Shown piece by piece: positions 5,641 through 63,817 of a stretch of 64,000 nucleotides of DNA. The notes under the pieces are model-generated. The model saw nothing but the letters and a program-made list of their open reading frames with translations, made no database searches and had not been told where the DNA came from. How positions within the stretch are numbered: the first letter of the stretch is position 1; every line of letters starts with the position of its first letter. This stretch comes from Chondrosia reniformis. Lineage: Eukaryota > Porifera > Demospongiae > Chondrillida > Chondrillidae. The stretch spans positions 62,001-126,000 of the forward strand of contig OX359195.1 of NCBI GenBank assembly GCA_947172415.1, in the 5' to 3' direction. Position numbers and translations under genes: made by a program.

Positions 5641-5710
5641 AGCATGTCCAATGAGTTTTGGAAAATTTTGATTTCTACATAAATTTGCCCTATCTCTCTC
5701 AATACATTAA

Positions 5711-8173: not shown

Positions 8174-8663
8174 AGGTACATTAAAGTGCTGTAGTTCTGT
8201 TAAATGGAGAGATATGAAGCTGAAACATTGTGTAAGTATTCACAGAGATGTATGAAAGGCTTCCAATGAATTTTGCAAATTTTCATTTCTACTCAAATTT
8301 GCCCTATCTCTCAACATACATTAATTTATTATACCATAATTTAATGTACATTGAGGGCTGTAACTCTTTCAAAAGGAGAGATGTGAAGCTAAACCTTTGT
8401 GTCAGCATTCACAGACATCTATAGAGTATGTCCAATGGGTTTTTGAGATTTTGCTTGAACTTAAAATTTGCCTTATATCTCACCATACATTAATTTTATA
8501 TACCAGAATTTAATGTACATTGAGGGCTGTAACTCTTTCAAATGGAGAGATGTGAAGTTAAACCTTTGTGTCAGCATTCACAGTCATCTATAGAGCATGT
8601 CCAATGAGTTTTGGAAAATTTTGATTTCTACATAAATTTGCCCTATCTCTCACAATACAATAA

Positions 8664-24080: not shown

Positions 24081-25065
24081 TTCTAAACGAGCTCCTCACA
24101 GATCGATTTCTGTTTAACAAGTACTAGTTAAATTAACAGCATTCTTGCGTTCTGTATTAGCAAAACAGGTGCAAATTAACAGGCTCTGCAGGCGAAAGGG
24201 AAGGCGAGACACATGTTGAATCATTTTATGCGCTTGAATCGCATCACTCATACTTGCTAGTAGCAGATATGACAGTTTTTAAGCTATGTCGGGAACAAGC
24301 TGCAGTTATATAGAATATAGAAACAAGTATTGTTTATAAATACTAACGATCGGCCATTTTTGGCTTGCTTTTCACGTGGGTTGCTATGAATATAATTAAC
24401 TCATTTAGGGTGGTCCCGAAGTTAGCTAGCTAAAGCTACGCCCATCGATCGAGCTAGTCGTCGGAACAAGAATACGCAGGACCACATGGTAAGAGCAGTT
24501 CGAAAGATTGTCTGACATTTCCCGAAGACACTACCTTACGCTTAAATACAACCTTGCTCGTTTAACAGCTCTTTCTTCTCTCTCCCCCTCCTCCTCTCTC
24601 TCAATCCTTCCCTCTCTCTACAAAGGGTCAAGGTATCAGTAGGTAAGCGATGTGTTATACACAATTACAGCTGCTGTATTATATTGCACCTATGAACATT
24701 ATTAGAATAAGGATTTCTTCTATGTAACATTGTTTGCTAACATTATAGCCGGCGATACCTTAGCGACTGCTCTACTGTATTACGAGTGTTCATTGTGTTG
24801 TACAAAGCAGTTGTGGCTGCGATATCAGTTACTGATAGTATACCCACTAGTGAGTGATACAGTGTGTAAGAAAGTTCGCAGTTAATGACTGAGGAGACCT
24901 TGCAAATGCTATTAACTGAACAGATATAACCTTAATGGGACCACTGATGGCTTGTATGGGTGGGGTGGAATGTTGAGTTGATGGTAATAATTTAATAATG
25001 AATTGAAAAAAAAATACAAATCCTATATATTAAGGTTTTGATGATCGTCACCGCTTACTGTGGAT
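24081..25065. other. Divergent upstream region of guanylate cyclase and EPS8 genes
   Basis: Non-coding, between the start of the cyclase gene (minus) and the first recognisable EPS8 exon (plus). It probably holds both promoters and one or more EPS8 5' exons, which I cannot place. A CT-rich run (24,575-24,625) and a possible donor GTAAGC (24,652) are seen. No TATA box is convincing. Confidence 0.4.
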
Positions 25066-33199: not shown

Positions 33200-33443
33200 A
33201 CATTCATAATTACTTTGTATGCAAACAGTTTCTAATATTTCAAGCTTTTCAACTTATTTTTGCGTTTCATTAAATATGACACTTTTGAAGTTTGTAATTG
33301 AAATTAAACAGGCGCCGGCACTAAATGGCTTTGATGTCAATTGAATGATTCATTTATATATCATTAGCTCCCGAGGAGGTACTCATTGATGATGTTAATT
33401 GAGTGCAAACAATAACAGTTTAACTAAAGAATAACCATCTGTT

Positions 33444-36400
33444 TCACAAGTAATCTTCTCCTAAATGGTCAAAAAGAGAAGAATTACATAACAATATGTA
33501 TACAACACATTATTACACGTACATGCAGAGAATGAAAGATATTCACTTACCTATATTAACAATGAGTCGCAATTTCTGGTTGACTTTTCTTACATCATCA
33601 ACCACTTCTTGTTTAGGAAGATATTCTTTGTCTTTCTTATATTTCCAATTCATCATCAGTTTTAACTCTCTGAGATTCTGATTGGCTGCTGTTCCCTTTA
33701 GAATTCTCTCTGCAACGTTCCACCAGTTTATTGCACTCCCACTAAAACATCTATTACTCACTTCCAACCTCTCTAGTGTAGTGTTCTCCTTGACAGCTTG
33801 TTCAACTGATGTCAAGACATCTTCTTCAGTGACATCCTGGATATTCTGTACAAGTGTATCCGGAACAGTCAAATACATGTACTACAGTATAAGTGATTAC
33901 CTAATCTAAAACACTCAGAGGCCATAGACTGGAACAAGTAAGAGAAAGTTATATTAACTAGTCAAGTGTACCTCAGACTGTTTTGTTTCAGTACTGATGG
34001 TGAGTTCTTTCAATGAAGTATTGTCACGTAGACATACTATAACATTAGCAATGTCCCTCGGTGTGATATTGGAACACGATCGTAAAAAGGTTTCACCAAG
34101 TGTAATACTCTTCAACTGTTTCCTCTGTAGCAGTTTCACTAGTAATGCTCCATTTCCTGCCAGTTGAAGGAACCAATCAGATTACAGTTCATCAACACAC
34201 TGCAACTTTAAAATAAATGTGTAATAGTTTTAAAATGTTGAGAGGCTATGCATTGGCTACTAATCACTTGAAAGAGACACTTTACTGAACACAACCATTC
34301 TATTGAGATGACTGTATAGAGTATGTGATCCTCGAAAATTAAGTCCATAATGTTATAAAACCTACCTTTAAAGTCACATCCTATCAGTTTAACTTGTTCC
34401 AAAGAAGGATTCTGGATCATTCCCTTCAATATACTGGAGGTCAGTGTTTGATGTCCACAAGCATCCATGGTGACCTTCCTGAGTGTCTTGCACTGTCCAA
34501 CTCCACATTCAACAAGATCAGTGAGACCTTTCTCCCAACATAACAGAGATGTGTATGACATGGGAATACACTACACAAAAGTGTCAAATATATCAGCTAT
34601 GTAGGTCACAATTGAATGGAAGTAACAATGAAATGTCAAAAATAAACTGCTGAACTCTGGATTTACCCACACAATGAGCAAAAAGAGAAATCTTTAGAAA
34701 TAGAAATCATTTCAGATACACATACAAGGGCTATATAGTCAGAGTGGTGAATGGGGAGAGTGAAATGGAGAAGATAATATTCTATATATGGTCATCACAC
34801 TCACAGGTAATGGAGTATTGTGCTTCAGTCCAAACTCAAACTCTTCTATTTCACTGCTTCTAAGACAGTCAAACACTTCATAACATTGTGGCACTCCCAT
34901 CATCTCCTTGAGACAAAGTGTCTTTAAGCTCTTCTTCATACAACTCACAACACATGTTACTAACTCTACAGTATCAGCATAATCTTCATCTACAAGAAGT
35001 GACAAAATATATTAGCTACTACAAACACACCACCAGGTTATCAGGACTAGACCTCATAAGTTAACAAGTTATAACAACTCTACAACAATATTCACACAAA
35101 ATGTATAAAAACATTCACAAAAAATCAATAGACTTTAATATTTCGATAACACTACACTTACATGAGCATTCAGAAAAGTCAACATTTACTTTCTTCATGT
35201 TTAGTTTGTCTTTGATACCAAACAAGAACACTTTCTTCAAATTCACACTACACCTCCAATCCAATGTCACATCTTCCAGACTGGGGTGCCTCCTAATGCA
35301 CTAGAGTATAAAGATGTTGCTTGATCACTCAAGAATAACAATATAATACAAGTACTTATCTAAATGGAGAATTACTGTAATTACTGTAATTAATATGAAG
35401 ACATATCTCAACATTCACACTTAACACTGCACACAAGTGTCATACAGTGACCAATCACATGCAGTGACTACAGCTGATTATAGAGGTATCCCATTCACTG
35501 GTTTGTGTCACATACATGATACACTATACAGCTGGATAGAATGAACACATGTTCGTGGAATGGAACGAATACAAAGTGATCAAATTCAATATATTCATGC
35601 ACTATTAATATGACTGTCCATAAAGATTTACATTTCTCAACTAAAATGGAGATTTTACTGAACATTACACTTGTATCTATTCCACAACTCACATTGACAA
35701 TGTCATCAATAGCACCTCCTTCATATTCACATGCCCTCATCTCAATGGTAACCAACTTGGTTAGGTTGTCTAGTAAGACCTTTAAGTCTTCATGTGAAAA
35801 GTTGACTTTCCCCAGACTAAGTGATTTCAACTGACGACAAGTAACTACAGAGCTTATTAGTTCACTTGCCTTCACCTCAACTACATAAGGCAATATACAT
35901 ACATAAGAGAAAGGGTATATGTGGTATCATTTCAACTCTTGAATAATATTCACACAATACTAACAAGAAGATATGACATTCAACTGACATGACTCAGCCT
36001 TGAAATATATGCCGAAATGTATCTTGAGGTGTTCAAGTCTCTCTGAATGAACTGAGACAATGTCAGACATCATCGACATGTTATTATCATTCCACTGAGT
36101 AGGCTGTACACTCTCCACTATATTCTGTACACATGTAAATGTAACATAATTGAACAGTACTATATTGATATAACAATCACGTAACATTACATTACTACAT
36201 TTATTTAATTTGGTTAATTAAGAAATGTTTAAACACAAAGAAGCCATAAAACTACTTATTAGGCTGCAAACTTACCAAATCATGAAAGGTCAGCTTATTT
36301 AGTGAACTTTGCGACTTTAGAAAGTCTCGAAGTGAAACCAAAATTTTCCCGAACGCTGAGGGAAATACAAGTGATGAGTATCATTAGTCAAGTTGATTTA

Positions 36401-39400
36401 AAAAATAGTCACCCTGATGAGCAATCAATACACACTGTATCGGATCTATTAATTTGTAACTTCTTCCATATATGGCATGTCAACAGTCAACAAGTGTTTT
36501 ATTCACACATCTCTACTTACAAGATCAACTCACATTTAAAGGAGACTGTGACGTCTTCCAAAAAAGTCACTTTTTCAGATATTTGTGGAATGACGGTATT
36601 AATTGGATCCCAAACTGAAAGTCGTTTGATGTGTCTGCTGATGGTCATCAGGTAAGCTAAACTGTTGCGCTGATTGGGACTGAGATTAATGTCAGGATCA
36701 CTGCAACATTCCATGAACTTTTGACACAGCTCTTCAGTTCTGCTCTCTGCTACTGCTGTAGCAATCTCAGCGAAAGGGGTCCTTCTAGCAAACCTGTGAT
36801 CATTGGTATACGCAAGAGGCTCAAACAAGAGGTCTCTCACGGCATCATTCTCTAGTCCTCCAATGCCGCAGAAGAAAAGGAATGGCATCTCGTAGTTGGA
36901 GTTTGACAAGATAAACGCTCCTCTCTTGTTGTACCCAAGAACAAGCTTCTCTTTCCAGAACTTTCTCTGTTCCTCGGCAGGTAACTGCTTGATTGCACAA
37001 GCTGCAAGGAACTCTTGAACTGTTCTGTGAAGAAAGTGGTACGATCTAGTGACTCCACCAAAGGCACTTTGATAAGAGATGCAATTCATTAGACCAAAAT
37101 GCTCAACTTTTGACAGGTCCAGATGATCATCTTCTGACAGCTTCAGCTTCTGATCGAAAATGATGACATTATTCAGCACACCATATAAGGCAACTTTACT
37201 CAGATCGATCAAATGGGGACTGAATGAGTGATGTTTAGTGTTGACTACAAATACACATTGTCAAATATCAAGTAAAGTATCACATCAAAATGGAATGGAT
37301 GTGACAAATAACAAATTGGATTTAGAGGTTCCTTTATGTATGACTAACATGTACATAGCATTGCATTTTGAGGGTGCATAAAGAGGTTGTTGCCTTTATA
37401 AAGTAGATTACATTTCACAAATGCGAATAAACATATTTTTATATTCTTTCTTTGCAATTTTTGTAGAAGATGCACAAATTTCCTTATTATTTGGTCGTAC
37501 CACACTTCGGATATATAGACATACAGTAAGCTTAATTAATTATAGGATCTTGTTTTATCTCCATATATTAAGTATTTAAGACTAACTTGGATATTTGTAG
37601 GCAGGTCTGGACATGAATGGACAGAGTCGCGGAAAATCCTCAAGATTGCCAATTTCCATTTCCACTCCATTCTTCTCAAAGTATTGTTTCACTTTGAGGC
37701 ATATGATACTTTTAAATAGATCACTTATTGTATCAGGAGGGGCACCAAGGACATAATTGACATAACATGTCATCAGCAGGATCAGAGGGATGAAGCACAT
37801 GGCTTTGATTCGAGGCAGGGTAGAGTTCAGCCTTTCTATTAATGTAGCTGCAGAACCAGATGACTCTCCGTAGTACTTTCTTATGAACTGCTCAATATTT
37901 TCCTTTTCAAATCCACTCACCACGATACGTCTGTCTATCTTGCTGTGTAGAGGGGCTGATGCTCGTGGTCGGGATGTGATGATGAAGGATGACTGAGGGA
38001 GGGTCTTGCCATTTATAATGTCTGCAACCAGAGATTCCTTCTGTAGCTTTTCAGGAAACTCATCGTAGCCATCCATGATGAACAGCGTTTTATCTCCATC
38101 TGTTGAGGAGATGAACTGACTCAAGAGGGAAGGAATTTCTTTCTGCAGTGAAGTCCCAACATCACTGGTACAGCTACGAACTAGGTCCTCTACACTCAGT
38201 GTAGTATGGACAGGAAGACCTCGGAGTACTACTCTAATGACTAGCTTGTATTCCCTGGCAAATGTACCCTCAGCAAACTGGTAGCACAGCTGTTTGGTCA
38301 GAGTGGACTTGCCTATACCAGGCTCTCCTTCCAGCAGGACGCATTTCCTTGGAGGTTGTGCAGGCTTGTACTCCAAGATCTCCTGCAGGCCAATGGGTTT
38401 TCCTTTGATGTCATGTGACTGACCAGTAGCTGATGCTAGAACTACAGATGGAGCATACTGTAGCTTAGCTTGTGTCGTTTTCAATTCTGGTGACTCTACA
38501 AGTTGGAGCTTGACAAAGTCCATTTTAGCTTCCTTCAGTGTCCAGTGTTTTGATATGATCGGACATTGGTACACCAACTTAAGCTTGGTCAGAACATTCT
38601 GTACACATATTAGGAAGAAGAATTTTACATACATAGGAAGCATTGAACATGCAACTTAAAAATTTAACCAGGAAAATATTTTGTGTCGAATTCTTCACAA
38701 AAATAAGGTTATAAAGAAACAAACAATTTCCTCTAATGACTTGCTGTATGAAGTATACATTATAAGTGTTTCTTATGTGAATACACTCACCTCACTTAGA
38801 CCAGGAGTAACAGGAGGAGGAGAGGTAGGGATAACAAGATGTCTTCCTTGATCTGAAGAGGGACAATGACATAAAAAGGTAACATTTATGACCATGACGG
38901 GAATCATTAATAGTCTTGTCTCTATGCATATAATGCAGCTCCACAACTTTCTTAGTCTAATGATGATGAAATTTAAGTTCAGATCTTGCTTAGTTAGCCA
39001 ATCCAGCAATGGTGAGGTTGCCTAGCAATGGTGAGGTTGCCTAGCAATGGTGAGGTTACCTAGCAATGGTGAGGTTGCCTAGCAATGGTGAGGTTACCTA
39101 GCAATTGTGAGGTTACCTAGCAATGGTGAGGTTGCCTAGCAATGATGAGGTTACCTAGCAATGGTGAGGTTGCCTAGCAATGGTGAGGTTACCTAGCAAT
39201 GGTGAGGTTACCTAGCAATGGTGAGGTTACCTAGCAATGGTGAGGTTACCTAGCAATGTCTGAAATTAACAGAAACCCAGTGCTACTGACAATTGATGGT
39301 ATTCCACAAATAGGCCTTCTAGCACACTGGCTTTGTGACATCGTTTATAAAGACCATCATATTATTTCACTCATTAATGTCCATGGTTCAATGTATAAAT

Positions 39401-40620
39401 TTAATTGGATAGACGGTTTAAAGAATTCCTCTAGTCATATATGCTTACTCTATATAGCATGCCATACCATGGGCAACATGCATTTATAACGTATAAACAC
39501 TTAGTTGGATGCCCATTATATAGACGATCTGGGGCACCTTTTAGGAGGCATACCAAATAAGGTAAAGAATTGAAATCTAAACAATAGTTTCACACTTAAT
39601 CAACAGGGTTTCATTGGTTGAAATCTCTGCTCCAAAATTGCTCACAGCTCCTGTTCGGTGCATTTATATACTAAGGAATACTGATCATCACATTCATACC
39701 TGATGAGGTATCTTTGAGAGATAAGAAATCTTCAATAACCTTTCCAAACCTCTTATTCATGTTTGTAGTATTAGGAGCTTCCTTTAGTACATTAGCAGCT
39801 GCTTCAAGTGTCTCTGGAGCTGGGTCATTGTGAAGGAACTGGTAGAACAGGTCATTTGCAGCAGCTGCATTTGAAGCTTTGTCCAACTGTTGTCTCTGTC
39901 CTTGAGATATGACATGCTCACGTTCAAGATCAAAACGTATTGCTTGAGCATTACAGTATTTTATATGACTATCCCTGTGTTGGTCCAGGAACTCAATGAC
40001 CTCATCTGGTGTCCTTTCTACAACATTTAAAGCCTTACTTCATCACAGATCAGTAATATCTACTTATTGTAGCATATAAAAGGATAACTGTAAGCTGCTG
40101 TATACACAAGTTACAAAATGGCATTTACAGTAACTTTTTAATGTTGATCCTGCGACTTTTAAAATCTTTGCAATATAGATTAGTGATTGCATGGACATTC
40201 ACTGGCATTGATATATTATAAAAATAAAAAGGTTTAATGTGACATTAATAGAACCAACGGCTATAATGATTATAGATGTGACACTCACCATTACTGCATT
40301 CATTATACTTTGATTTCTTAGAAGGTGGAACAGAGTTATCTAAAATAAAATTTTGTAGTCATGTGAATCAATAATACAAATATAGCCCATGGCCAGATTT
40401 TTGGTACATTTAATTTTGCGATAATTATAAGGTACAGTTTTAATACACACCACAGTTTCTAAAGGGCAGCTCGTTTTTCCGCCAGTAAAGACTTTACTCC
40501 CTACGAAGCCATGTGGTAACCACACTGATTTGATGTAACATTTAGCTCTATATTTGAATTACGCGTTTTTTCACTTTCATGTATAAAACATTATTTCATA
40601 CAGAAAAACTCACTTATCAT
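33444..40620 (-). CDS. NLR1: CARD-NACHT-LRR innate immune receptor
   Basis: Exons 40620-40614, 40339-40289, 40017-39700, 38852-38791, 38598-37587, 37244-36534, 36355-36276, ~36125-35998, then LRR exons to the stop at 33444. The third exon encodes a CARD-like death fold (starts ERTPDEVIEFLDQHRDSH). The NACHT NTPase has Walker A GEPGIGKST and Walker B LFIMDGYDEF. A helical region with SYHFLHRTVQEFLAACAIKQ follows, then LRRs. NACHT proteins of this form are intracellular sensors that oligomerise on ATP binding. It differs from NLR2 by an extra intron (37,586-37,245) with ~19 extra residues. Its donor after the second LRR exon reads CTGAGT where NLR2 has GTGAGT, so the remaining LRR exons may not be joined in frame (a stop follows at ISSC). 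It is either a truncated NLR or alternatively spliced. Confidence 0.8.
39010..39258. repeat. Minisatellite in NLR1 intron, 19-bp unit
   Basis: About 13 copies of GGTTACCTAGCAATGGTGA with TTGCC/TTACC variants. NLR2 has only about four copies at the equivalent place (57,536-57,612, opposite strand). The core GTTACCTAGCAA resembles the X-box-like palindrome seen throughout the window. Confidence 0.95.
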
Positions 40621-41174: not shown

Positions 41175-44100
41175 CTACAGTCCTGACTTGCATTCGTATT
41201 GATGAATCTTCCAATCAGCTTGCTGGCAGGTGGTGGAGCAGTAACCATGGCGACCACACCCACTGCACTCGTACACAGCCAACATTCCACAAGTACACAA
41301 GTCCTGAGTAAACAGAAGGAACAGTGACACCACTTTTAAGAGCCCCCGGGCCTCTGTGAGCAATGAATATTGGGTTAATATCCTATCCTGACCATCATGT
41401 TTCACAATAGTATATAACAATTTAAAATCATGGGCTTCTTCTAAAAGGCACCTGTTAACCTGTTAACCTCTAAAGGCCTCTAAAACTCCCTAAGTCTCTG
41501 GACATGTAAGTTGTGATGTGAAAGTGAACTGACAGTGTCCAGTGATCTCAGTGCAAGAGATCTCTTCTGTTCCTCTTTAAGTCTTCTTTTCATCTCCTTC
41601 CTCTTGCGTCTGATATCTCTGCAGAAAGACTTGTGGTTGGGCCAGTCCTCCTCCTGACATGTCTCTGAACAGTACCCCACCTCCTCACACTTGGCACACT
41701 CCCATTCTGAGACACGCCCACAAACACACAAGTCCTTCATCACAAGACCTTTGCACATAAACAACAAATATATCATACAGTATATCCTTTAGAGATCCAA
41801 ATATTATACAGTGATCAGATAATTATAGCTGGAGACTATCACAGAGCAGTAATATAACTCTACTTCCTTACCACACCCCTCCCTCTAATACCACACCCTC
41901 CCTCTAATACCACACCCCTCCCTCTAATACCACACCCTCCCTCTAATACCACACCCCTCCCTCTAATACCACACCCCTCCCTCTAATACCACACCCCTCC
42001 ATCCAATACCACACCCCTCTCTCCAATACCACACCCCTCTCTCCAATACCACACCCCTCCCTCTAATACCACACCCCTCCCTCTAATACCTCACCCCTCC
42101 CTCTGATACCACACCCCTCCCTCTAATACCACACCCCTCCCTCTAATACCACACCCCTCCCTCTAATACCACACCCCTCCCTCTAATACCTCACCCCTCC
42201 CTCTGATACCACACCCCTCCCTCTAATACCACACCCCTCCCTCTAATACCTCACCCCTCCCTCTAATACCACACCCCTCCCTCTAATACCTCACCCCTCC
42301 CTCTAATACCACACCCCTCCCTCTAATACCACACCCCTCCCTCTACCATCTACCTACAAACCTGTTCTTTCTACTGTCTTTATGTAAAATGTTCTCTTCT
42401 CGTGTTGTGTCAGTTCAAAGTCTTTCAGACAAAACCGATCTTCATCATCTACTGCATAAGTATCTTCAGAGTCCATGGCCACCAGGAAGAGGAAAATCCT
42501 GTCATTAGGATCAGCTTGATTGCTATCTATGAACAGAGCTCTCAAGTCTTTGAGCGTTGCAGTTTCCTCAAGGTACACTCCGCATGAATAGACCTTCTTC
42601 TCAATACCTACCAGAGAGGTGGGTGTGGCAGCCTTTGTAGGGGGTGTGTCTACTTCCTTAGTGGATGTACCTTCTTCAGTCCTTGAGCTCCTACTATGAG
42701 TGGGTGTGGCTTCTGCAGTGGGTGTGTCCTTACTAGTGGGTGTGGCCTCTGCAGTGGGTGTGTCCTTACTAGTGGGTGTGGCTTTACTAGTGGGTGTGGC
42801 CTTACCAGTGGGTGTGGCCTCTGCAGTGGGTGTGGCCTTACTAGTGGGTGTGGTTTCTGCCATGCTCTTATAAATGTGCACTACTTGCCATCTTAGTTTG
42901 TGGTTGATCTCGTGAGGTTCGTTAAAGGTCTCCTCCTCCTCGCCACCTTCCTTACTAACAAACATGTCTTGAAGACGAGACCCTATTTACAATACAGGAT
43001 ACCTGTATACTGATTTATATTGTAACTATTGCTAGTGTTACTATAATAATGTTGGCACTCTGACTGTGTATAAAGTATCTCACAAATGTTTAGCTAATTC
43101 TAGTATGGCCCAACATTTGTATACATAATAATCAGTATGTAACATGTATAAATACCTTTTGGAATTATTACTTTTAAAGATTCTGTCCTAGTAATGTTTA
43201 GTCCATCTTCCTCTTCCAGCCCCTCCTCCTGCCCCACCCTCTTTAGCTCAAAGGAGGCAGTCTCGTCCTCTGGGTGTATCCTTGCAATGTCTGCCTTTCC
43301 TCTCTTCTTGCGCCATCTTATCACCATGGCAACAATAACGACTACTAATATGACTAATATCAATAGAACAGCCAAAACAGCTCCGACTGCTGCCCCAGGG
43401 AAGGGGGGAGAGGTAGGAGGGACAACTAAATGATGCAATAGATGTGATGTTATTATAGACACTTAACTGATGTGGATATGTATTGTATTGTATTGTATTG
43501 TATTGTATTGTATTGTATTGCATTGCATTGCATTGCATTGTATTGTATTGTATTGCATTGCATTGCATTGTATTGTATTGTATTGTATCGTATTGTATTG
43601 TATTGTATTGTATTGCATTGCATTGTATTGCATTGTATTGCATTGCATTACATTGCATTGCATTGTATTGTAGTGTATTAATTATATGAAATGAGGAGGA
43701 GTATTTGCTGTGATCATGATGAGCTAGAAAGTTATTGAGTGTCAACAACTTTCTAGCTCAAAATATATTACTATGCACATACAGTAAATCTCTTTAACAA
43801 GTATGTACAATAATCAGTGTGCCCTAACCACGCCCTAGCCACGCCCACCTTTCATCTGACACACCCCTCCTTTCCACCCACTCTTGCATGTACAGGAGCC
43901 ATTGATGTGATGGCATGACTCAGTCCCTTCAGAGTTACACGGACACTGCTCAGAACATCCCTCTCCATACACCAAACCTTCACACACTATACAACAGAAC
44001 ATTATAACTTTGAAAAGAAAGACATTTCACACAATCAAATTGTCTTTGAGTATCAGTAAAGTTAAGTTACACCTTCAACTTCAATACACCTACAAATACA

Positions 44101-47100
44101 CCTTCTGCAATACCTCAAATATAAATAAATATAAACTATAAAATACATTTTAATAAATACCAGAAAAATGGTGATTCACATTTAATTTATTATTTGGGAT
44201 TGTAGACCTACCTTGGCTACATGTGTTGCCACGGTAACCAGGATCACAGTCACACTCTCCAGTAGCCTTTACACAGAGGCTATCCTCTCTACAACTGCAT
44301 TGTCCCTGGCAACCATTACCATAGTAACCATCTTGGCACTCTAAAAAGACAGATCAGCTGCCATTAACCAAATATGGTTAAAGCACATGTACATACCTGT
44401 GTTGCATGTGGGCCCCTCCCACCCAGGTTGACAGGTACACGCCCCTTTCACATGATCACAACTGACTACATTGATGCATTCACATACTTTACTGCACAGG
44501 TAACCATAGTAACCGTCAGGACAAGCTACAGGCAAGGTAGAAATAAAAGAAGTATTTCTCAGAAGTTAACGTACATTATCTAATCTCATTAAAAAAGATA
44601 CATTTTTCAATCTATAAACTGTCAAGTGCATGTGACTGACATGTGACTGACATGTGACTGTCATGTGACTGTCGTGCTATTACAATATTCAAACTACAAC
44701 ACTGAGTTAAAGATGTATTGGACTAGATCAACATATTAACCTACTTTGTTCACATGATTCTCCAATGTACCCGTCAGAACAGTTGCATATCCCAGTGGGT
44801 GGAGCACATAAGCCACGCCCACTACACTGACACACCTGCCTACACTCCTCCCCCCAGGAGCCATCTGGACACACTACGCAACATGAGCAGACAGAAGGAT
44901 CTGTCACTGAAATTAAATAATAAATTATCATCACATTATTATCTTATAAACTTTTCAACTTACAAGTAGAGCAGCTGTTTCCATAGTAACCACTCAGACA
45001 TGCATCCAGGACTGTAAATTCTGTGAGGTGATCACAGGTACAGGTCACACTTTCATTCTAAATTTGAAAATTGGGAATGAAAATGGAACATCAACGAATG
45101 GTAGATCAACTCACTCCAGCAACTGTAGTGCAACCATCAGTTGACCATTTCAGGTCAGATTTGTCCCAATAGACACAAGTGAGGGTGCCTGGGAGAGATC
45201 CCTTCAATGTGAGAGGAAATTCTAAGGCCACACCTCCCTGAATATCACCAAGCTGGAGTATAGTACCATCAAGTCGATCAAGTAGTAGAAGGGAGGTGGG
45301 CGTGGTCTTTATAATGGAGGCGGGGTCATGGCCATCCCAGTGGAGGTCCTTCTTGTACTGCACAGACAATAGACATTGTCCAAGTAGACATTGCGACACT
45401 GATGTAGGGCATCCATCAGTGGGGGAGGAGTTTGGTTGCCATGGAGACCAGTGTACAAATACGGGGGGAGGAGTTGGACCATCAGATGTCAAATAAATTC
45501 TTGGAAAATGCGTCCATGTGGACTTGACAATGAGATTGCCCCCTGTCGATGTAATTACGGGGTTCTCCTCTCCTATTCCTTGTTGAATACAGAGTGTATG
45601 ACCCAGTGACGGTAGTATCAGGTCAAAGTACATGTCACTAAGTGCTGTTGCTAGGATACGACTATTGATAGTAGATTCAGCTCCCTTGAAGAGAACATTA
45701 TTGATAATTTCAACCACAAGTGTTGCCTCTTGAACAGACATTCCAGGTTTTGAATATACAGAATGTTTGTAAAATCGTGTATAGATATTGATAATGTCAT
45801 GTGACACTATAAACAGCTTTTCCTTTGTAGTAACATCCAATACATCCCATGAACTGGCTTCTTTTAGTTGCCATAGTAACCAGTCCAAATATGGCTTTGT
45901 CTTTGGGAGGGTGTCCTCAAACATTGAAAGCAACAAATTTACAACTTTTAATTGAAACTGAGATGGGTCCACTTCCAAGGGTAACCACTCACTAATGAAA
46001 GGAATTACCCCAGCAAGATTAACCAAAACATTTCCATAGTCACTTTCAGGGTTGCTATGGTAACCATCAATCAGGTCACTAATGCTACACTCTCTTCCAC
46101 CAATTATCTCAAGTGGAGAGGCTATCACTTGAGTGTATGCTCCTAATGTATTGTATACCCTTAGCACTCCATATATAGCTATCCTAGTGTGGTTGCTAGG
46201 ATACAGAGTCACATGATGCCACTGAGAGTAGGCAGGTGTATTTGACCATACAATGTTACTATCAGCAGTGTCTTTATTGACCACGCCCCCAGCCACATAG
46301 CCAAATTGATGTTGCAAGGGAAGGAGATGTGGTCTCTCTGTCCAGTGTTGAGCTCTTAGAGAAAGGCGTGTCCCACAAGAGAGGGGCTTTAAGTGGGCAT
46401 GAAGTGAGCCACTAGAGGGGCGTGGTGCCACTCTAACAGAAGTGCTACCCTTCACAGCCCCGCCCACCTGGCTGGTGTAGGTGAGCCCAAAGTGGTACTC
46501 CTCCTCAGGCTGCAGTACATTTCTCTGAAGCACAAGAGAGAGGACCTGCCAAACTGACTGGTCGGTCACAAGGTATCGCTGATCTTCAGTGGACACTGCC
46601 TCCGAGTACTCTTCATTGCTGAGCACTGCATAGTGGAGAGGTGAGCGAGCAACCAAAGGGGTGAGGGGGAGGTGGGCGGAACCGGGCACAAACAGCCCCT
46701 CCCACTTGACCACACCCACTTTAGGTGTCAGGACTACAGCTGATATAACAACCTCATCAGTTGACAAAACAAAGGATTCTCCTCTTCCAACTGAGAGTAT
46801 TCTAACTCCACCCACTTGGGCTGCTGTTGCCATGACAATCTCAACTACAGTTTCTATAGAAATTGTTCTATTAGTAAATCTGTTATATATCTGAACAGAA
46901 AACATATACTGCCCCACCCCCAGGGTGCCAGGGGGGAGTGTCACTACAGGAGCTGAGGGAAGGGACACGCCCACACAAGGTTGGCAACATGTCTGATTAA
47001 TACAGGTCCAAGTGATTTGAATTTGATTTTCATAAAATTGAATATTTACTGATTCACTGATATCCAGTACAATCTCTTGATCTGATGGGAGGAGCTGATA

Positions 47101-49207
47101 GTCTCCACCCACAAGTAACAACTCTATTTCAGGATGCTCTGCATATAGAGTGACGTCTATAGTAGCTTCTTCAGAAAGGAGACTGGCTGTCATGGTTACC
47201 AAGTATATGTCTCCTGCACTGAGAGTACCAGGCGGTATCCATAGCGATGGGGTTGCCAAGGTGATTATATCTAAGATGGAGGTAACATCGGTTTGTTGAC
47301 CATTTGTGATATTCAATGCTTTCCACAGAAATGACAACTCAGTCGACTGCACACTGCTACAGTTGGACACCTCGTAGTGGACTGTAATGATGATATCATC
47401 TAGGGGGTTTACCTCTCTGAAGGGGCTTCCCCTCAGGTCAAGCTGAATAAGAGAGGGCAAATCCATCACTTTCAAGGTTATGGATTTGGGTTCACTAGAT
47501 AAATTGAGGAAGTTCCTAGTAATTAAGGTGAAATGATACTCTAAGTCTTGGTAAAAGATATCTGCAGGAATGACTAGGTTGCTATAGTAATTAAATCCAT
47601 CAGGGATATAGGATTGCAACATTGTCATGGCAACAGTCATGTCATCAAGTGTCATGTTAGAGGTATTTGTAATGTCAACAGTCCAGCAAAACTCAAGTGG
47701 GCGTGGTCCAGAATTATATGAGGAAGCTCCTGTTATGATTAGATTACCACAGGGTGGAATAGAAGAATGACCTGTAAAAGTGTAATGAAATCCAGTGATA
47801 CCAAAGGAACCTCAAAAACAAACTATCAGATATAGACGAATATGACATGTACCTGTAATTATAGCCACTGGGTATAAGGGAGGTCCCTCTGTATTGGTTG
47901 CTATGGTAACTGCCTCCACCTTACTAAGACGAGAATATTCTACACTTCTTGTTCTGAGTATACCACTGTTGATGCCAATTTGGTAACCAGGGGCAACAGA
48001 TGATTCTTGTGACAATAAAATTGTAACTTGCCTTTGTCTACTGTTTTTCCATTTGCATTTTGAAGTTGAACTCAGAATGGAGAGAGTGGGAGGATCAAAG
48101 AGTAAGGCACATGATGGGGGTGTGGTTGTATTAAAGTCATGTTCCCCTCCCACCTCCACCTCTCTGTCAAACTGGACCCACAGCTCAGCATAGGAAGGAT
48201 CAAACATGACCGACATCAGGGTGGGGGCAGTGGAGTAGAAAGTAAAGGTTAATGGTCTTGATAAGTATGGTAGTATACCAGATTTTTGTCCATTTATGGT
48301 TATCATGACAACCTGTGATGAAGGCACTGGATATGTTGGCAGGTTGCACATCAGAGAACTACTGTTGGCATGGCAACACACTCCCTTATACTGGTCTGAC
48401 CCCACCCACACCTCATAGCCTGCTACCTCGGGGAAATCCCTTCCTGTGATGACCACTGTATTGCTAGTAGTGTTGAGGCCTTGTTCCGGTTGAATGAGAT
48501 GCAGAGGAGAAGTGGAAGTGTTAAAGTATACAAATGAGAGAGAGTTGGTGCGAAAAGCAGTTCCAGATATTGTTAGTGTGAACATTACTGAGTGTCCTCC
48601 AGTGACATCTATTGGAGCTGCAATAATAGAACATGTATATAGAGAACATGTATATAGAGTGTCAATTACACAACGATATTAAATTTTCTACTAATTATGA
48701 CAAACATTCAACAACTAAAATCTCATACCTCAACTGCACATACTGTATTGGACCATGTATACATAACACTCACATTTATCATCATGAATATCTAAACACC
48801 ATTTTTAAAGACATGGCTGACACGAGGAAAAGGAAAACACTAAAATAGACTGTGTTCCTATAGTTTGGCAAAACCTAGCTTTTGGTGAGTAAATACTTCC
48901 TCTTTGCCACATACATTAGCTAATACTCACTTCCATCGTCATATCTGAGAAAGTTTGCTTCAGGAACACTGCACTCCAGTTCTGTGTCGGACAACACATG
49001 GACATCTGAGGTATTGCCTCCTTGAAGAGGATCAGTAAAGGAGCAGCTGGTGGTTGCCATGGAGACACTGGTAAACCCTACTCCAGTAACGTGGATTACA
49101 GATCCACCATTCACAGATCCACTTGCTGGACTTACAGTTGCTATGGAAACAGGACTAACTGCCCTCACTAGTCCCAACAGGACACTCAATAAGAAACTAA
49201 ACTCCAT
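41175..49207 (-). CDS. Single-pass receptor: IPT-REJ-GPS-EGF-TM-MYND
   Basis: Exon 1 (49207-~48930): signal peptide MEFSFLLSVLLGLVRA and an IPT/TIG domain (SPASGSVNGGSVIHVTGVGF). Exon 2 (~48617-47845): further IPT-like folds (NTVVITGRDFPEVAGYEVWV). A long exon (~47770-45112): REJ-type region as in polycystin-1 and sea urchin REJ receptors, ending in a GPS site (CVYWDKSDLKWSTDGCTTVA) completed by the next exon (VTCTCDHLTEF), where autoproteolysis falls at HL/T. Then 4-5 EGF-like repeats (45,055-43,845), a TM exon (43,426-43,156) followed by WRKKRGK, a Thr-Pro repeat, a ~90-residue folded region of unknown type, and a MYND finger (CVCGRVSEWECAKC ... CQEEDWPNHKSFC). Splice phases match across the TM, Thr-Pro and first MYND exons. 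The second MYND exon (~41,307-41,175) has no strong donor before it, so the protein may end at the stop near 41,480 in some transcripts. Confidence 0.75.
41870..42348. repeat. Intronic minisatellite, 20-bp unit
   Basis: About 24 copies of CCACACCCCTCCCTCTAATA with CTC/GAT variants, in the intron before the first MYND exon of the receptor gene. Confidence 0.95.
42690..42865 (-). repeat. Coding minisatellite: Thr-Pro repeat of the receptor tail
   Basis: Eighteen- to 24-base units read on the minus strand as ATPTSK, ATPTAE, DTPTAE and ATPTGK. All keep the frame. It lies between the membrane segment and the MYND part, and is probably a flexible, phosphorylatable linker whose length could vary between alleles. 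Confidence 0.9.
43473..43677. repeat. Pentanucleotide microsatellite (TATTG/CATTG)n
   Basis: About 40 perfect pentamers that switch between TATTG and CATTG in blocks, with one CGTAT-type variant. It lies in the receptor-gene intron before the TM exon. The long frames on both strands are artefacts. Confidence 0.97.
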
Positions 49208-56325: not shown

Positions 56326-59300
56326 ATGGCTTCCAGGGACTCTGTTCCACCTTCTAAGAAATCAAAGCACAATCAATACAGTGATGGTGAGTGTCACATC
56401 TCTTTTAATTGCATTAGCATGTTACATCAAATCAGTGTATATGTACTGGTTATGAGAGCTTATTGAGCATCAGTAATATAAATTTACTAATTCTGGACGT
56501 TTCAACCGGGGGATCTTCATCAGCAATGCATATTATAATGATTGCAACAAGCACTCCTAAGTAAGGTGTTTACTGGTGGAAAAACGAGGTCCCTCTAGAA
56601 ACTGTAGTATATAAAAACTGTAGTTTATCACAAAAATTAATGTACCTAAAGTATGGGTTATATTGCATTATTACAGCAACTTGATTCAAATGACCTTTGC
56701 AGAAATGTGGGCAATTAGATGGTTGCTTACCTCACCACACACAAAATGATTTACTGTCCTGGCATGCCTACAACTATTTTTGCACAATCGCCTCGTATGG
56801 GTGAGACTGGCCAGGGTTTTGTGTCCTCAGCAGGAATGTGGGTAGACAGATTGCAGGAGCAGGTGTTTGACATAAGACATAAGAGATTATGTCTTGCAAC
56901 TTGTACTTCAATGAATGCATACTTGTGAAAACCAGTAGAGTATATACTCTCTGATAAGAGTGTTTTTATACTGTTATTCTCTGCATGTAGAAGAGGACAC
57001 CTCAGTGAAGCCAGATTTAGAGAAGCCAACCATCCTAGACCTCCAGTATGTGGCAGAATCTGTAGCACTTGATCAATCAGATGGGATCTGTAGACGATTA
57101 GGGGTCAGTGAGGCAGTGCTCAGCCATGCTAAACAAACCTACCCTACCAACACCCCTGGAGCTCCAGCAAAGAGGTTCATGTATGGCTTGCAGGACTGGT
57201 ACAATGGAAATGGAGTCCTTGGTGGTAGAGCTGTACCGGTGACATATTCAGTTCTCTGTAAGGCACTCGAGGATAGCAGGTGTAGAGATGTAGCTGATAA
57301 ACTGAGGAAACAAGGTAAATATACACACCATAGAATGTACTAAGAATACAATAAACCACAAGTGTTTAGATATGCAGAGTAAGCTTTATACATAGAACCA
57401 TTGTAATGAATAAGAGAAATAAAATTCACCTAAAATGGTCTTTATAAACGATGTCATGAAACCAATGTGCTAGATAGCCTTTTAGTGGAATACCACCATT
57501 TGTCAGTAGCACTGGGTTTCTGTCAATTTCAGACATTGCTAGGTAACCTCACCATTGCTAGGTAACCTCACCATTGCTAGGTAACCTCACCATTGCTAGG
57601 TAACCTCACCATTTCATTATTCATGCATCTAGTCTAAGGAAGTTGTGGAGCATTATATAGAGACAATTAACGATTCCCGTCATGGTCATAAATGTTAATG
57701 TTATGTCTTGGTCCCTCTTCAGATCAAGGAAGACATCTTGCTATCCCTACCTCTCCTCACAGTGATGTTACTTCTGGTCTAAGTGAAGTGAGTGTATTCA
57801 CATAACAAACACTTATAATGTATACTTCATACAGCAAGTCATTAGAGGAAATTGTTCCTTATCTTTTATGAGGAATTCAATATCAAATATTATTTATGTT
57901 AAATATACTTTAAGTTGCATGTTCAGTAGATTTATGTTACGGCTAATGCTTCCTACGTATGTAATAATTCTTCTTCCTAATGTACAGAATGCTCTGGCCA
58001 AGCTTAAGGAGGTGTACCAAAGACCAATCATAGCAGATCACTGGTCACTGAAGGAAGCTAAAATGGACTTTGTCAAACTCCAACTTGTAGAGTCACCAGA
58101 ATTGAAAATGACAAAAGCTAAGCTACAGGACGCTACATCTGTAGTTCTAGCATCAGCTACTGGTCAGTCACATGACATCAAGGAAAAGCCCTTTGGCCTG
58201 CAGGATATCTTGGAGTATGAGCCTGTGCAACCTCAAAGGAAACGCATCCTGCTGGAAGGAGAGCCTGGTATAGGCAAGTCCACTCTGACCAAACAGCTGT
58301 GCTACAAGTTTGCTGAGGGTACATTTGCCAGTGAATACAAGCTAGTCATTAGAGTAGTACTCCGAGGTCTTCCTTCTGATACCACGCTGAGTGTAGAGGA
58401 CCTAGTTCGTAGCTGTACCAGTGATGTTGGGGCAAGTCTTGATGAAAAAGATGTGTCCACTTTGAGTCAGTACATCACAGCCAACAAGGGAAAGGAAACA
58501 CTGTTCATCATGGATGGCTACGATGAGTTCCCTGAAGAGCTACAAGAGAAATCTCTGGTTGCAGACATTATAAATGGCAAGACCCTCCCTCAGTCATCCT
58601 TCATCATCACATCCCGACCACGAGCATCAGCCCCTCTACACAGCAAGATAGATAGACGTATCGAGGTGAGTGGATTTGGAGAGAAAGAGATTGAGCAGTT
58701 CATAGGAGAGTACTACGGAGAGTCATCTAGTTCTGCAGCTACATTAATAGAAAGGCTGAACTCTACCCTTCCTCAAATCAAAGCCATGTGCTTCATCCCT
58801 CTGATCCTGCTGATGACATGTTATGTCAATAATGCCCTTGGTGCCCCTCCTGATACAATAAGTGATCTGTTTCAATGGATTGTCTGCCTCACTGTGAAGC
58901 GACACTTTGAGAAGAATGGAGAGGAAATGGAAATTGTCAGTTTTGAGGATGTCCTGCGACTTTGTCCCCGTTTGATCAAACTGAGTCAACTTGCCTTGGA
59001 TGGTGTGCTGAAAGATGTCATCATTTTCCACAATCTGGAGCTGTCAGAAGATGAGCATTTTGGTCTAATGAACTGCATCTCTTATCGAAGTGTCACTGGT
59101 AAAGTCACTAGATCATACCACTTTCTTCACAGAACAATTCAAGAATTTCTTGCAGCTTGTGCAGTCAAGCAGTTACCTGCCGAGGAACAAGGAAAGTTCT
59201 GGAAAGAGAGACTTGTTCTTGGGTACAACAAGTATGGAGAGTTTATCTTGTCAGACTCCAACTACGAGATGCCATTCCTTTTCTTCTGCGGCATTGGAGG

Positions 59301-62300
59301 ACTAGAGAATGATGCTGTGAGAGACCTCTTGTTTGAGCCTCTTAAGTTTACCAATGATCGCAGGTTTATTGGAGGGACCCCTTTCCCTGAGATAGCTACA
59401 GCAGTAGCAGAGAGCAGAAATGAAGAGCTGTGTCAAAGGGTCATGGAATATTACGAAAATAAAGTTGTCATTAATGGTGATATTCGCCTCAGCCCTTATC
59501 TCAGCTCAACAGTTTAGCTTACCTGATGACGACCTGCAGCAAACACATCAAACGACTCTCAGTTACGGATCCAACTGATTCCTTTATTCAACAAATGGTT
59601 GGAAAAGTGACATATTTGGAAGAAGTCACAATCACTTGTGAGTTGAGATGTAAATAAACAACTTTCCATTGATATTTCATTTGAACATTGACCTACAAAA
59701 TTAAAACAGTTACAAACCTTTTCTAACTCGTGCAACAAATTAATATTCTCAATACAATTAAAAAGAATATTTTTGATAACCACTTCTAAACTACAAACTT
59801 GTTTGAATATAACTAAAAACACTTTTTTGACTGTTGACATACCATATATGGAAGAGGTTACAAATTAAAAGATGTGTATTGATTGCACCTTGTGATAATC
59901 TTTGAAGTGTGAATATGCAACTGATGACCTGTATGACACTCATCACCTGTATTTCCTTCTATAGCTTTCTCGAAGATAGACTCTAGACTAGAGTATATAG
60001 GCTCTGGACTACAGTATATAGGCTCTGGAGATGTAATAAGCAGTGCACAATTGGCTAAACTCTGTGTCTTACAACTTTCCATTGATAATTCATTTTAACA
60101 TTGACCTACAAAATTAAAACAGTTACAAACCTTTTCTAACTCGTGCAACAAATTAATTCAGTCACTCAATACAATTAAAAAGAATATTTTTGATAACCAC
60201 TTCTAGTCACTATATATATACTAAACTACAAACTTGTTTGAATATAACTAAAAACACTTTTGTTAATTGTTGACATGCCATATATGGAAAAGGTTACAGA
60301 TTGATGTGTATTGATTGCAACTTGACTGATGACCTTTATGACACTCATCACTTGTATTTCCTTCTATAGCTTTCTCGGAGAGAGAGCTAGAGTCTGTTCT
60401 ACTTAAAGTCTTTCTAAAGTCGCAAAGTTCACTAGCTAAACTGACCTTTAACGATGTGGTAAGTTACACATAAGTAGTAGTTTTATGACTTCTTTGTGTA
60501 ATGTGTTTTAGTGAATTGAATGTCTTTCTAATGGTATACTGTTCAATTAAAATGTTACATTTTACATATGTACAGAGGGGACACTTTAGAATGTCTGACA
60601 TTGTCTCAATCCATTCAAAAAGACTTGAACACCTTGGAATACACCTCGGGATTACATCTAAAAGAGCTCGAATGGGTGAGTCATGTAAAGTGTGTATGTC
60701 ATTTTATCTTCTTTTAAGAGTTTGTGTGAATATCGTGTATGTCAATGGAATGTAATATCTTCTTGTTAGTATTGTATGAATATCACTGAAAGTGTACATC
60801 TAAAGAGTCACATGTGACAGTATACAGTACACAAGTTCGTGTCACTTGTGTTGTCATGCACTGCACAAGTCATGAGTTGTGAAGTTACTAACTTGAAATG
60901 ATACCACAAACCTTGTCCTTGTTTACTGTGTACGTAGTTAAGGAGCCAAGTGAGCTAATGAGTTTAGTAGCTACTTGTCATCAGTTGAAATCTCTTAGTC
61001 TGGAGAGTTATAGTGACAGTTTTATACATGAAGACATAAAGGTCTTACTAGACAACCTACCACAGTTGGTTACCATGGAGATGATGGACTGTTATTATGA
61101 AGATGGTGATATTGATGCCAGTGTCAATGTGAGTTGTGGAATAGATACAAGTGTAAAACCTCTATTCAGAACAGCATTTTAGTTGAGAAATATGAATCCT
61201 CATAGACAGGTCTATTAAAAGTAAATATTGTATTTGGTCATTTTATATTTGTTCCGTTCCACGGACATGTGTTCATTCTATCTAGCTATATAGTGTATCA
61301 TGTATATGTATGACACAAACCAGTGAATGGGACAACTCTATAATCAGCTGTAGTCACTGCATGTGATTGGTTGCTGGTCACATGAGATCTCACTGTATGA
61401 TACTTGTGTGCAGTGTTAAGTGTGAATGTTGAGATATGTCTTTATGTATAGTAATTCTCTATTTAGATAAGCACTTGTATATATTGTTATTCTTGAGTGA
61501 TCCATCAACGTCTTTATACTCTAGTGCGTTAGGAGGCACCCCAGTCTGGAAGATGTGACATTAGATAAGAGGTGTAGTGTGGATTTGAAGAAAGTGTTCT
61601 TGTTTGGTATCAAAGACAAACGAAACATGAAGAAAGTAAATGTTGACTTTACTTTCTGCTCAGGTAAGTGTATTGTTATCAAAATATTACAGTCTATTGA
61701 TCTCTTGTGAATGCTTTTATACATTTCGAGTGAATATTGTTGTAAAGTTGTTATAACTTGTTAACTTGTCAATATGAGGTCTAGTCCTGATAATCTGTGT
61801 TGTGTGATTGTACATAGCTATATATTTTGTAACTTTCTGTAGATGCTGATCTCGTAGAGTTACTATCATGTGTTGTGAGTTGTATGAAGAAGAGCTCACT
61901 AAAGACACTTTGTCTCGGGAGAATGGAAGGAGTGCCACAATGTTGTGAAGTGTTTGACTGTCTTAGAAGCAGTAAAATAGAAGAGTTTGAGTTTGAACTG
62001 ATGCGCAGTACTTCATTACCTGTGAGTGTGATGATGATATATAGAATATCATCTTCTCCACTTCATTCCCCATTCACCACTCTGACCCTAACACTATATT
62101 CCCTCATTGCTATATAGCCCTTGTATGTGTATATGAAATGAGTTCCAAGTATATGTAGACAGGATCTGTGAAAGGCTGTGCAGAAGCTACTGACTAGTAT
62201 TGCTTCTCAAGTATATGACTTATCTTTGAACCTGTTTAAGTGATAATTTATATGCCTGTCTTATGGCTATCCCATAGTTGGTCTTAGTTGTTCTGCATAC

Positions 62301-63579
62301 TATCTGTTTATCAGTGAATTTTAAAGTGTTCATTTGAGAAGAGATATCTTGTGTACCTATAGTGCAAATTAGTTCCAATGGTCAATCCTAATGACCAATC
62401 AAATCCATTTTACAGAAAGGTTTCACTGATCTTGTTGAATGTGGAGTTGGACAGTGCAGGACACTCAGGAAGGTCACCATGAGAGCTGGTGGACATCAAA
62501 AACTGACCTCCAGTATATTGAAGGGAATGATCCAGAATCCTTCTTTGGAACAAGTTAAACTGAAGAAATGTGACTTTAAAGGTAGGTTTTATAACATTAT
62601 GTACAGAATGTATTGCCTATGGACTTAATAAGTTTCATCAACTATGAGGATCATGTACTCTATACAGTCATCTCAATAGTCAGAATGGTTGTGTTCAGTA
62701 AAGTGTCCCTTTCAAGTGATTAGTAGCCAATGCATATCCTCTCTCTACATTCCCTCTCTATGTTCCACATGCTAGTAGCCATCATAAATACATGGTGTAT
62801 TTTAAAACTAATACACAAACATTTATTTTAAAGTTGCAGTGTGTTGATGAACTGTAATCTGATTGGTTCCTTCAACTGACAGGAAATGGAGCATTACTAT
62901 TGGAACTGCTACAGAGGAAACAGTTGAAGAGTGTTACACTTGGTGAAGGATCGTGTTACAACATCACACCGAGGATCATTGCTAATGTTATAGTCTGTCT
63001 ACGTGACAATACTTCATTGAAAGAACTCAACATCAGTACTGAAACAAAACAGTCTGAGGTACACTTGACTAGTAAATATAACTTTCTCTTACTTGTTCCA
63101 GTCTATGTGTGTTCCAGTCTGAGTGTTTTAGATTAGGTAATCACTTCATATTGTAGTACATGTATTTAACTGTTCCGGATACATTTGTACAGAATATCCA
63201 GGATGTCACTGAAGAAGATGTCTTGACATCAGTTGAACAAGCTGTCAAGGAGAACACTACACTAGAGAGGTTGGAAGTGAATAGTAGACTGAGTGAAATG
63301 AACTGGAGGAATGTTGCAGAGAGCATTCTAAAGGGAGCAGCAGCCAATCAGAATCTCAGAGAGTTGGAACTGGTGATAAATGAGAAATACAAAAAATATC
63401 CTCCTAAACAGGAAGTGATTGAGATTGTAAGAAAAGACAACAGGAAATTGAGACTCATTGTTAGGATAGGTAAGTGAATGTCTTTGATCATCTGTTTGTA
63501 CATGTAATACGTAGTTTGGTTAACAGTATATAGATTTATAAATTCTTCTCTTTTTGTTCCAGGAACTGATTACTTGTGA
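56326..63579 (+). CDS. NLR2: Death-NACHT-LRR innate immune receptor (LRR part out of frame)
   Basis: Exons 56326-56384 (MASRDSVPPSKKSKHNQYSD; in-frame ATGs also at 56,281 and 56,251), 56991-57314, ~57722-57787 and 57988-59516, then LRR exons (60,371; 60,577; 60,940; 61,526; 61,844; 62,415; 62,881; ~63,172; last 63,563-63,579). The second exon is a Death-like fold (LQYVAESVAL ... ICRRLGVSE ... GLQDWYNGNG). NACHT: GEPGIGKST and LFIMDGYDEFPE. The rest parallels NLR1 throughout, including the last exon coding DYL-stop. At ~59,490-59,505 a net +2 relative to NLR1 shifts the frame and gives a stop at 59,514, before the LRRs. The LRR exons themselves look open, so the lesion may be recent, or the gene may now encode only Death-NACHT. 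Confidence 0.8.
59650..60400 (+). repeat. Tandem duplication (~410 bp) inside NLR2 intron, with part of an LRR exon
   Basis: 59,655-59,990 and 60,068-60,400 share long matches (CATTGACCTACAAAATTAAA, CCTTTTCTAACTCGTGCAAC, ATTTCCTTCTATAGCTTTCT). Each copy ends with the acceptor TTCTATAG and the start of the first LRR exon. Only the second copy continues into the full exon; the first is a partial exon remnant. Confidence 0.85.
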
Positions 63580-63817
63580 AACAGACTGTTATTCTGCAAA
63601 ACTGTTGTTTGAACTATTATATCTATATATATCGAATAAAGGTTATCAATTAACTTTACATGTTAGTTGTAAAGGAACTGAGATAAGAGTATAGGGAACT
63701 GACTAGACTTTTACGTTACTTCATTTCAATTCATTACAGCTTGCAATTACATGTATTCAAAGATAAACCAGATATTAAAGTTTATATATATTATAACTTG
63801 TAAAATAGTACAACTGG
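63580..63817. other. Short intergenic spacer downstream of NLR2
   Basis: AT-rich. A possible polyadenylation signal AATAAA at ~63,634 lies shortly after the NLR2 stop. Nothing else was recognised. Confidence 0.5.

Follow-up and report, generated by a model that had tools for sequence, protein, structure and literature searches.

A sponge gene joining a REJ-GPS ectodomain, EGF-like repeats and one membrane helix to a predicted MYND-finger tail

Introduction

MYND fingers are known mostly from nuclear and cytosolic regulators, and epidermal growth factor (EGF) repeats followed by one transmembrane (TM) segment are found in receptors of the MEGF10/PEAR1/SCARF type, which to our knowledge carry neither a GPS nor a REJ domain. 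The gene modelled here lies on the minus strand, between positions 41175 and 49207 of a 64,000-nucleotide stretch of the Chondrosia reniformis genome (C7:62001–126000, where C7 is contig OX359195.1), referred to below as the window. From N- to C-terminus, the modelled product has a TIG domain, a REJ domain and a GPS with an HLT site; behind these come EGF-like repeats and one membrane helix, followed by a Thr-Pro tail and then a MYND finger.

A partly similar layout has been described in the sea urchin, where SpREJ1, SpREJ8 and SpREJ9 have a REJ domain (partial in SpREJ8 and SpREJ9) and a GPS upstream of a single predicted TM segment (PMC1934368), and a single-pass isoform of Cirl is described in a review (PMC13197933). 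The initial annotation of the window regarded both the EGF repeats and the single helix behind the GPS as unusual. The first point stands for the window gene; the second does not, since the three SpREJ proteins and the Cirl isoform already place a GPS before a single helix. For the SpREJ family, the portion of the published account used here names C-type lectin, PKD and PLAT domains and mentions no MYND finger (PMC1934368). The window gene, unlike that family, has TIG in front, EGFs behind the GPS and a MYND finger in the tail. PKD repeats and C-type lectin domains are given as frequent but not universal in the PKD1/REJ family, and PLAT, which follows TM1 in 5 of 10 SpREJs, is hence not universal (PMC1934368). 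No PKD repeat or C-type lectin domain was among the Pfam families matched in scans of the window protein. PLAT gave no match in a scan of the whole protein, and the genome's three PLAT matches lie elsewhere. The gene does share with the PKD1/REJ family the REJ domain itself (PF02010), which matched window exon 3 at 1.9e-16 when that exon was scanned alone and matched a paralogue, described below, at 1.7e-16.

Polycystin-1 resembles the window gene in having a REJ domain followed by a GPS with HL^T, the tripeptide cleaved in that protein (PMC4810088). Its GPS contains one disulfide (PMC4810088, PMC9672506), and the GPS of the paralogue seems alike. It differs in its 11 TM segments, where the window gene has one together with a MYND finger. 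The PKD channel domain was absent from Pfam scans of the window protein and the paralogue, and the seven TM segments that follow the GPS in adhesion G-protein-coupled receptors (GPCRs) were not seen in the window protein, which has one hydropathy peak besides its N-terminal segment. Among the matches listed from the open-licence PMC literature, none describes, in its title or opening abstract, a receptor with a GPS or REJ domain that also bears a MYND finger. The new features are a MYND tail where some relatives have PLAT, EGFs behind the GPS, and a C-x-C zinc pair in three fingers.

An open 11-exon model of the receptor gene

In a scripted rebuild, 11 exons running from 49207 to 41480 joined to 1825 codons with no internal stop (Table 1). 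All 10 introns are bounded by GT and AG, and all are in phase 1 save the one inside the GPS, which is in phase 0. The initial annotation had proposed an IPT-REJ-GPS ectodomain followed by EGFs, one helix and a MYND finger, and this architecture is borne out by the open model together with its Pfam matches. It had also read the splice phases as linking the TM exon to the Thr-Pro exon and the latter to the first MYND exon. Both junctions are as claimed: AAA G/gtattt...aaatag/GG TCT for exons 9 and 10 (43156/42982) and ACA G/gtttgt...gcaaag/GT CTT for exons 10 and 11 (42362/41748).

REJ was recovered in a search of the genome at 2.6e-14, and it went unreported when the whole 1825-residue protein was scanned with Pfam at E up to 1. 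Four exons (5–8) and the half repeat in exon 4 make up the EGF-like content. The segment matched laminin-type EGF in Pfam (9.1e-14, 3 stretches), and Teneurin-EGF and PEAR1-like EGF were also matched. For exon 5, an alternative acceptor 33 nt upstream likewise preserves the frame. Above a hydropathy of 1.6 there is a single peak, the membrane helix of Table 1, aside from the signal-peptide-like segment at the N-terminus (residues 5–23). GAIN found no Pfam match in scans of the window gene or the paralogue, and an AF2 (AlphaFold2) model of the paralogue's region reached a predicted local distance difference test score (pLDDT) of 33. Two introns are rich in short repeats. The one between exon 10 and the first MYND finger consists mostly of a 20-bp minisatellite in 24 copies (window 41869–42345), and intron 8 holds 40 copies of a 5-bp repeat (window 43479–43679).

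Table 1. Features of the receptor gene, in window coordinates
Feature	Position	Strand	Basis or score
Exon 1: start codon, signal-peptide-like segment, start of IPT/TIG region	48931..49207	-	TIG best stretch 22-123
Exon 2: remainder of TIG region	47853..48617	-	TIG 1.5e-11 (Pfam), 2 stretches
Exon 3: REJ domain, GPS (first half)	45115..47771	-	REJ PF02010
Exon 4: second half of GPS and half an EGF-like repeat	44964..45057	-	GPS PF01825, Pfam E 2.4e-12 across exon 3/4 junction
HLT tripeptide, residues 1243-1245, predicted cleavage HL^T	45022..45030	-	Position in model
Exon 5: EGF-like repeat, 129 nt, phase 1-1	44745..44873	-	Model and Pfam
Exon 6: EGF-like repeat, 129 nt, phase 1-1	44397..44525	-	Model and Pfam
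Exon 7: EGF-like repeat, 129 nt, phase 1-1	44212..44340	-	Model and Pfam
Exon 8: EGF-like repeat, 138 nt, phase 1-1	43849..43986	-	Model and Pfam
Exon 9: stalk, membrane helix, juxtamembrane RKKR, acidic stretch	43156..43425	-	Model and hydropathy
Membrane helix, residues 1457-1475	43319..43375	-	Hydropathy 3.78
Exon 10: Thr-Pro tail and ~90-residue linker	42362..42982	-	True frame top of six
18-bp tandem repeat, in-frame code for Thr-Pro array	42699..42860	-	Repeat search
Linker, residues 1650-1736, no recognised domain	42363..42623	-	Pfam, AF2, paralogue comparison
Exon 11: MYND finger 1, basic clusters (RRKRK, KRR), stop codon	41480..41748	-	Pfam zf-MYND 4.8e-7
MYND finger 1, residues 1744-1779, first zinc pair C-x-C	41621..41728	-	Pfam
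MYND finger 2: second of a tandem pair, alternative last exon or remnant	41175..41303	-	Pfam 8.3e-10

A paralogue with the same domain order

We searched the genome (117,379,552 bases in 15 contigs) with profiles for the domains at either end of the model. The REJ model gave three matches among the 3 candidates scored: the window gene, a locus at C7:429–432 kb (L049) and a third locus (L051). MYND gave 12 exon matches, 2 of them in the window gene, 2 at C7:387 and 429 kb and 8 elsewhere. A MYND exon lies downstream, on the same strand and within 5 kb, at all three REJ loci. Because the profile search scored its best candidates alone, which may miss REJ genes cut by introns, and because a sequence search with the ectodomain (window exon 3) returned the window gene and one broken fragment and missed L049 as too distant, further REJ genes may have escaped detection. 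GPS exons, many of them in equal-score clusters (for example C2:7.72–7.93 Mb and C7:7.06–7.10 Mb), occupy at least 93 places in the genome; REJ matches number three. None of the other eight MYND places falls within 130 kb of a listed GPS exon (the nearest is at 134 kb), and 10 kb searched around four of the eight held no receptor match except one finger. The chance of finding 2 of 10 MYND genes within 5 kb of a GPS exon was put at 1.7e-4, a rough, post hoc figure. Pattern matches in GTDB genomes (63) and IMG/VR (12) included no confirmed relative.

L049 contains a single open frame of 1596 residues that encodes TIG, REJ, a GPS-like site (CHYTHLTQF) and a membrane helix and extends into the tail; no EGFs lie between the GPS-like site and the helix. 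The frame leads into a GTAAGT donor, and 343 nt on a CAG acceptor opens, in phase 0, an exon of 424 codons with the finger and a tail rich in proline. Within this exon no in-frame ATG occurs until after the first two cysteines of the finger, so the exon needs upstream splicing to yield a whole finger. The window gene and L049 share the same domain order and are 25% identical over 690 aligned ectodomain positions (2e-30); they also align at the GPS (0.004) and at the finger (4e-10). Their tail introns differ in position: phase 0 and 39 residues before the finger in L049, phase 1 and 7 residues before it in the window gene.

L051 covers about 5.2 kb of L049 at 96.6% identity; its frame is interrupted, leaving two separate open frames. 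A further locus, L066, is a smaller fragment. Since both are partial copies of L049, the genome offers two independent full-length cases, and, as judged from sequence, C. reniformis has a small REJ-GPS-TM-MYND family of which two full-length members were found, the window gene and L049. A dN/dS comparison of L049 with L051 showed two synonymous and no nonsynonymous differences in either of two stretches of the tail (0.012 vs 0.039 for the MYND exon; a value over 900 nt is distorted by gaps). We give these ratios little weight because L051 is truncated and its frame broken.

Copies in this family do decay, as the L051 and L066 fragments indicate together with a broken relative of the window REJ exon that lies 2.8 Mb from the window (C7:2896377–2897107; 56% identity over 216 residues, with internal stops). 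It could be argued from them that the window copy is itself decaying or unexpressed and that the paralogue alone works. This seems to us improbable for a gene that is open across all 1825 codons with its HLT site and zinc ligands intact.

Probable assignment of the MYND finger to the receptor

Taken by itself, the window DNA leaves room for two adjacent genes, one for a REJ-GPS-EGF receptor whose last exon is the TM exon or exon 10, the other a small gene of its own for the MYND finger. Stop codons lie a short way beyond the donors of exons 9 and 10, ATG codons precede the first finger, the donor at 42362 is weak-looking, and the 24-copy repeat sits inside the last intron. The rest of the genome speaks against such a division and makes a separate MYND gene unlikely, because all three REJ loci carry a downstream MYND exon on the same strand. 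L049 has the equal order and lacks an ATG before its finger, and no AATAAA or ATTAAA occurs on the minus strand from the TM exon to the end of the second MYND finger. We accordingly assign the two-gene arrangement a very low probability. That the finger is part of the receptor, as the initial annotation had proposed, is very probable in our judgement, since L049 keeps the order TIG, REJ, GPS-like site, TM and MYND though its tail intron lies elsewhere.

A number of observations weigh against the single-receptor model and its proposed function. The joining of exons is a prediction from genomic DNA. The exon 10 donor (CAG/gtttgt) is weak-looking, exon 10 left unspliced meets an in-frame stop at 42354, and the first MYND finger of the window copy has its own nearby ATG codons. 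Codon scores did not single out the MYND exons, nor did they single out an EGF control exon. With respect to the paralogue, L051 is a truncated duplicate of L049 and not an independent case, the GPS-like site of L049 received no Pfam score, and a low-complexity hydrophobic stretch at about 850–890 of its open frame may be an unspliced intron. The similarity between the two tails (4e-10) is due to the finger, and the linkers that precede the fingers are not significantly similar (global z 0.3, local z 0.6). Finally, the tail of the window gene contains no PxLxP motif; that of the paralogue contains one.

MYND fingers and the predicted cytoplasmic tail

Two MYND-finger sequences lie at the 3′ end of the window gene, and the second scores better in Pfam than the first (Table 1). 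It sits past the exon 11 stop codon. A possible phase-0 junction from 41534 to 41303 would give a tandem pair, with a weak-looking donor, and the receptor perhaps has two cytoplasmic fingers. Seven cysteines and one histidine are present as zinc ligands in both window fingers and in the paralogue's finger (six cysteine positions were compared across the three fingers, and the last histidine and cysteine were read from the translations). The first zinc pair is C-x-C (CVC, CTC and CPC) and not C-x-x-C in 3 of 3, and all three fingers score above the Pfam cut-off.

The best sequence matches for the MYND finger were PDB entries 4a24 and 2jw6. In the ETO and DEAF-1 fingers, the residues that bind corepressor peptides correspond to DEAF-1 Met512, Glu514, Thr516, Gln529 and Trp533 (PMC3555993). 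When aligned by hand, the paralogue's finger keeps 5 of these 5 and each window finger keeps 3 of 5, the second having V and S at its two deviating positions. Likeness to DEAF-1 and ETO thus extends to the zinc ligands and, in part, to the peptide-binding residues. The differences are that those proteins are transcription regulators, where the window gene encodes a membrane receptor, and that the first zinc pair here is C-x-C instead of C-x-x-C. In both genes the finger is followed by basic clusters: RRKRK and KRR in the window gene, KKRR in the paralogue.

The region of about 90 residues before the first finger is probably coding, as the true frame of exon 10 had the best codon score of six. 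The initial annotation suggested that it may be a further domain. This suggestion finds no support, because comparison of the window gene's linker with that of the paralogue shows no significant similarity; the linker also has no Pfam match, its AF2 model has a pLDDT of 39, and a comparison of the tail with NCBIfam gave no match. A ubiquitin-like domain, considered for the same position, was dropped on the same Pfam, paralogue and pLDDT results.

Predicted GPS cleavage, possible alternative exons and proposed function

We think it probable that the window gene encodes a type I single-pass receptor, specified as one gene, in which the TIG/REJ ectodomain, GPS, EGF stalk and helix are joined to a Thr-Pro tail and MYND finger that recruits a partner at the membrane. 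Its role would be in adhesion or cell contact: displayed at the surface, the ectodomain would bind a putative ligand on a neighbouring cell or in the matrix. The flexible tail would keep the finger at the membrane, where the finger would recruit a proline-motif partner of the PxLxP/PPPLI type. Recruitment of this kind is the simplest reading and, from the sequences, the most likely. The sequence itself establishes the order of domains, the zinc ligands, the HLT site and an open frame that runs across consensus splice sites; the modelled splicing, surface display, ligand, cleavage and partner binding are inferences from it. The receptor might conceivably also take part in mechanosensing or gene regulation.

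The HLT tripeptide stands in the context CDHLTEF in the window gene and YTHLTQF in the paralogue, at distances of 211 and 55 residues from the helix, respectively. In an adhesion GPCR construct, a spacer placed between the ectodomain and the membrane of the endoplasmic reticulum cut cleavage from 45% to 10% (PMC12488864). By analogy, because of the difference in distance, we expect the predicted GPS cleavage to be more efficient in L049 and less so in the window copy unless EGF exons 5–8 are skipped; the EGF spacer suggests that autoproteolysis of the window copy would not be efficient. As a natural gene pair, the two would suit a study of membrane distance versus GPS cleavage.

The skipping of EGF exons belongs to a broader possibility, which we hold tentatively: the two MYND fingers may be alternative last exons carried by different transcripts, and exons 5–8 may sometimes be skipped, with the result that tails and GPS-to-membrane distances vary. 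The phase 1-1 structure of all four exons, the open frame formed when exon 4 is spliced directly to exon 9, and the weak-looking junction between exon 11 and the second finger are consistent with such variation, to set against which a tandem two-finger form is also conceivable. Alternative exons are compatible with a recruiting receptor, and the explanations considered here are not all mutually exclusive.

A different fate for the tail is suggested by polycystin-1, fragments of whose cytoplasmic tail are reported to reach the nucleus (PMC9672506). After GPS cleavage and loss of the ectodomain, a membrane protease would free the tail, which would enter the nucleus via its basic cluster and recruit a corepressor. 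The basic cluster behind the finger, present in the window protein and the paralogue alike, makes such release possible, and the DEAF-1-like peptide-binding residues (PMC3555993) point the same way. However, basic clusters are common, the EGF stalk sets HLT 211 residues from the helix, and in the experiment cited above a spacer lowered cleavage; we find nuclear release doubtful and prefer recruitment at the membrane. It is at most a speculative suggestion that sponges have a class of receptors that couple a REJ-GPS ectodomain to a MYND finger of the corepressor type, held at the membrane until force or contact exposes or frees it, the number of EGF exons setting the distance from GPS to membrane and through it the ease of autoproteolysis, and alternative last exons picking the finger.

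The presence of MYND behind each of the three detected REJ matches suggests that, in a lineage that branched early among animals, an adhesion ectodomain of the REJ-GPS type became linked straight to protein recruitment, with neither a G protein nor a channel domain involved.

Neighbourhood of the gene

An inverted duplication flanks the receptor gene (window 33402–39399 and 57385–63615), the four longest pieces being 81–86% identical. Each arm contains a NACHT gene, at 37585–38655 on the minus strand (3.8e-26) and at 57787–59514 on the plus strand (1.3e-26). Before the NACHT exon, an open frame of 122 residues (window 39674–40039) appears by eye to be helical and death-fold-like, with no Pfam match at 0.01. 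Further away, minus-strand exons at window 18998–24095 may represent a receptor guanylate cyclase: ANF_receptor matched at 0.0041, below the curated cut-off, and the stretch at 18998–19486 looks cyclase-like by eye. A 169-bp satellite occupies window 1145–5710 (26.9 copies) and 8168–8663 (2.9 copies).

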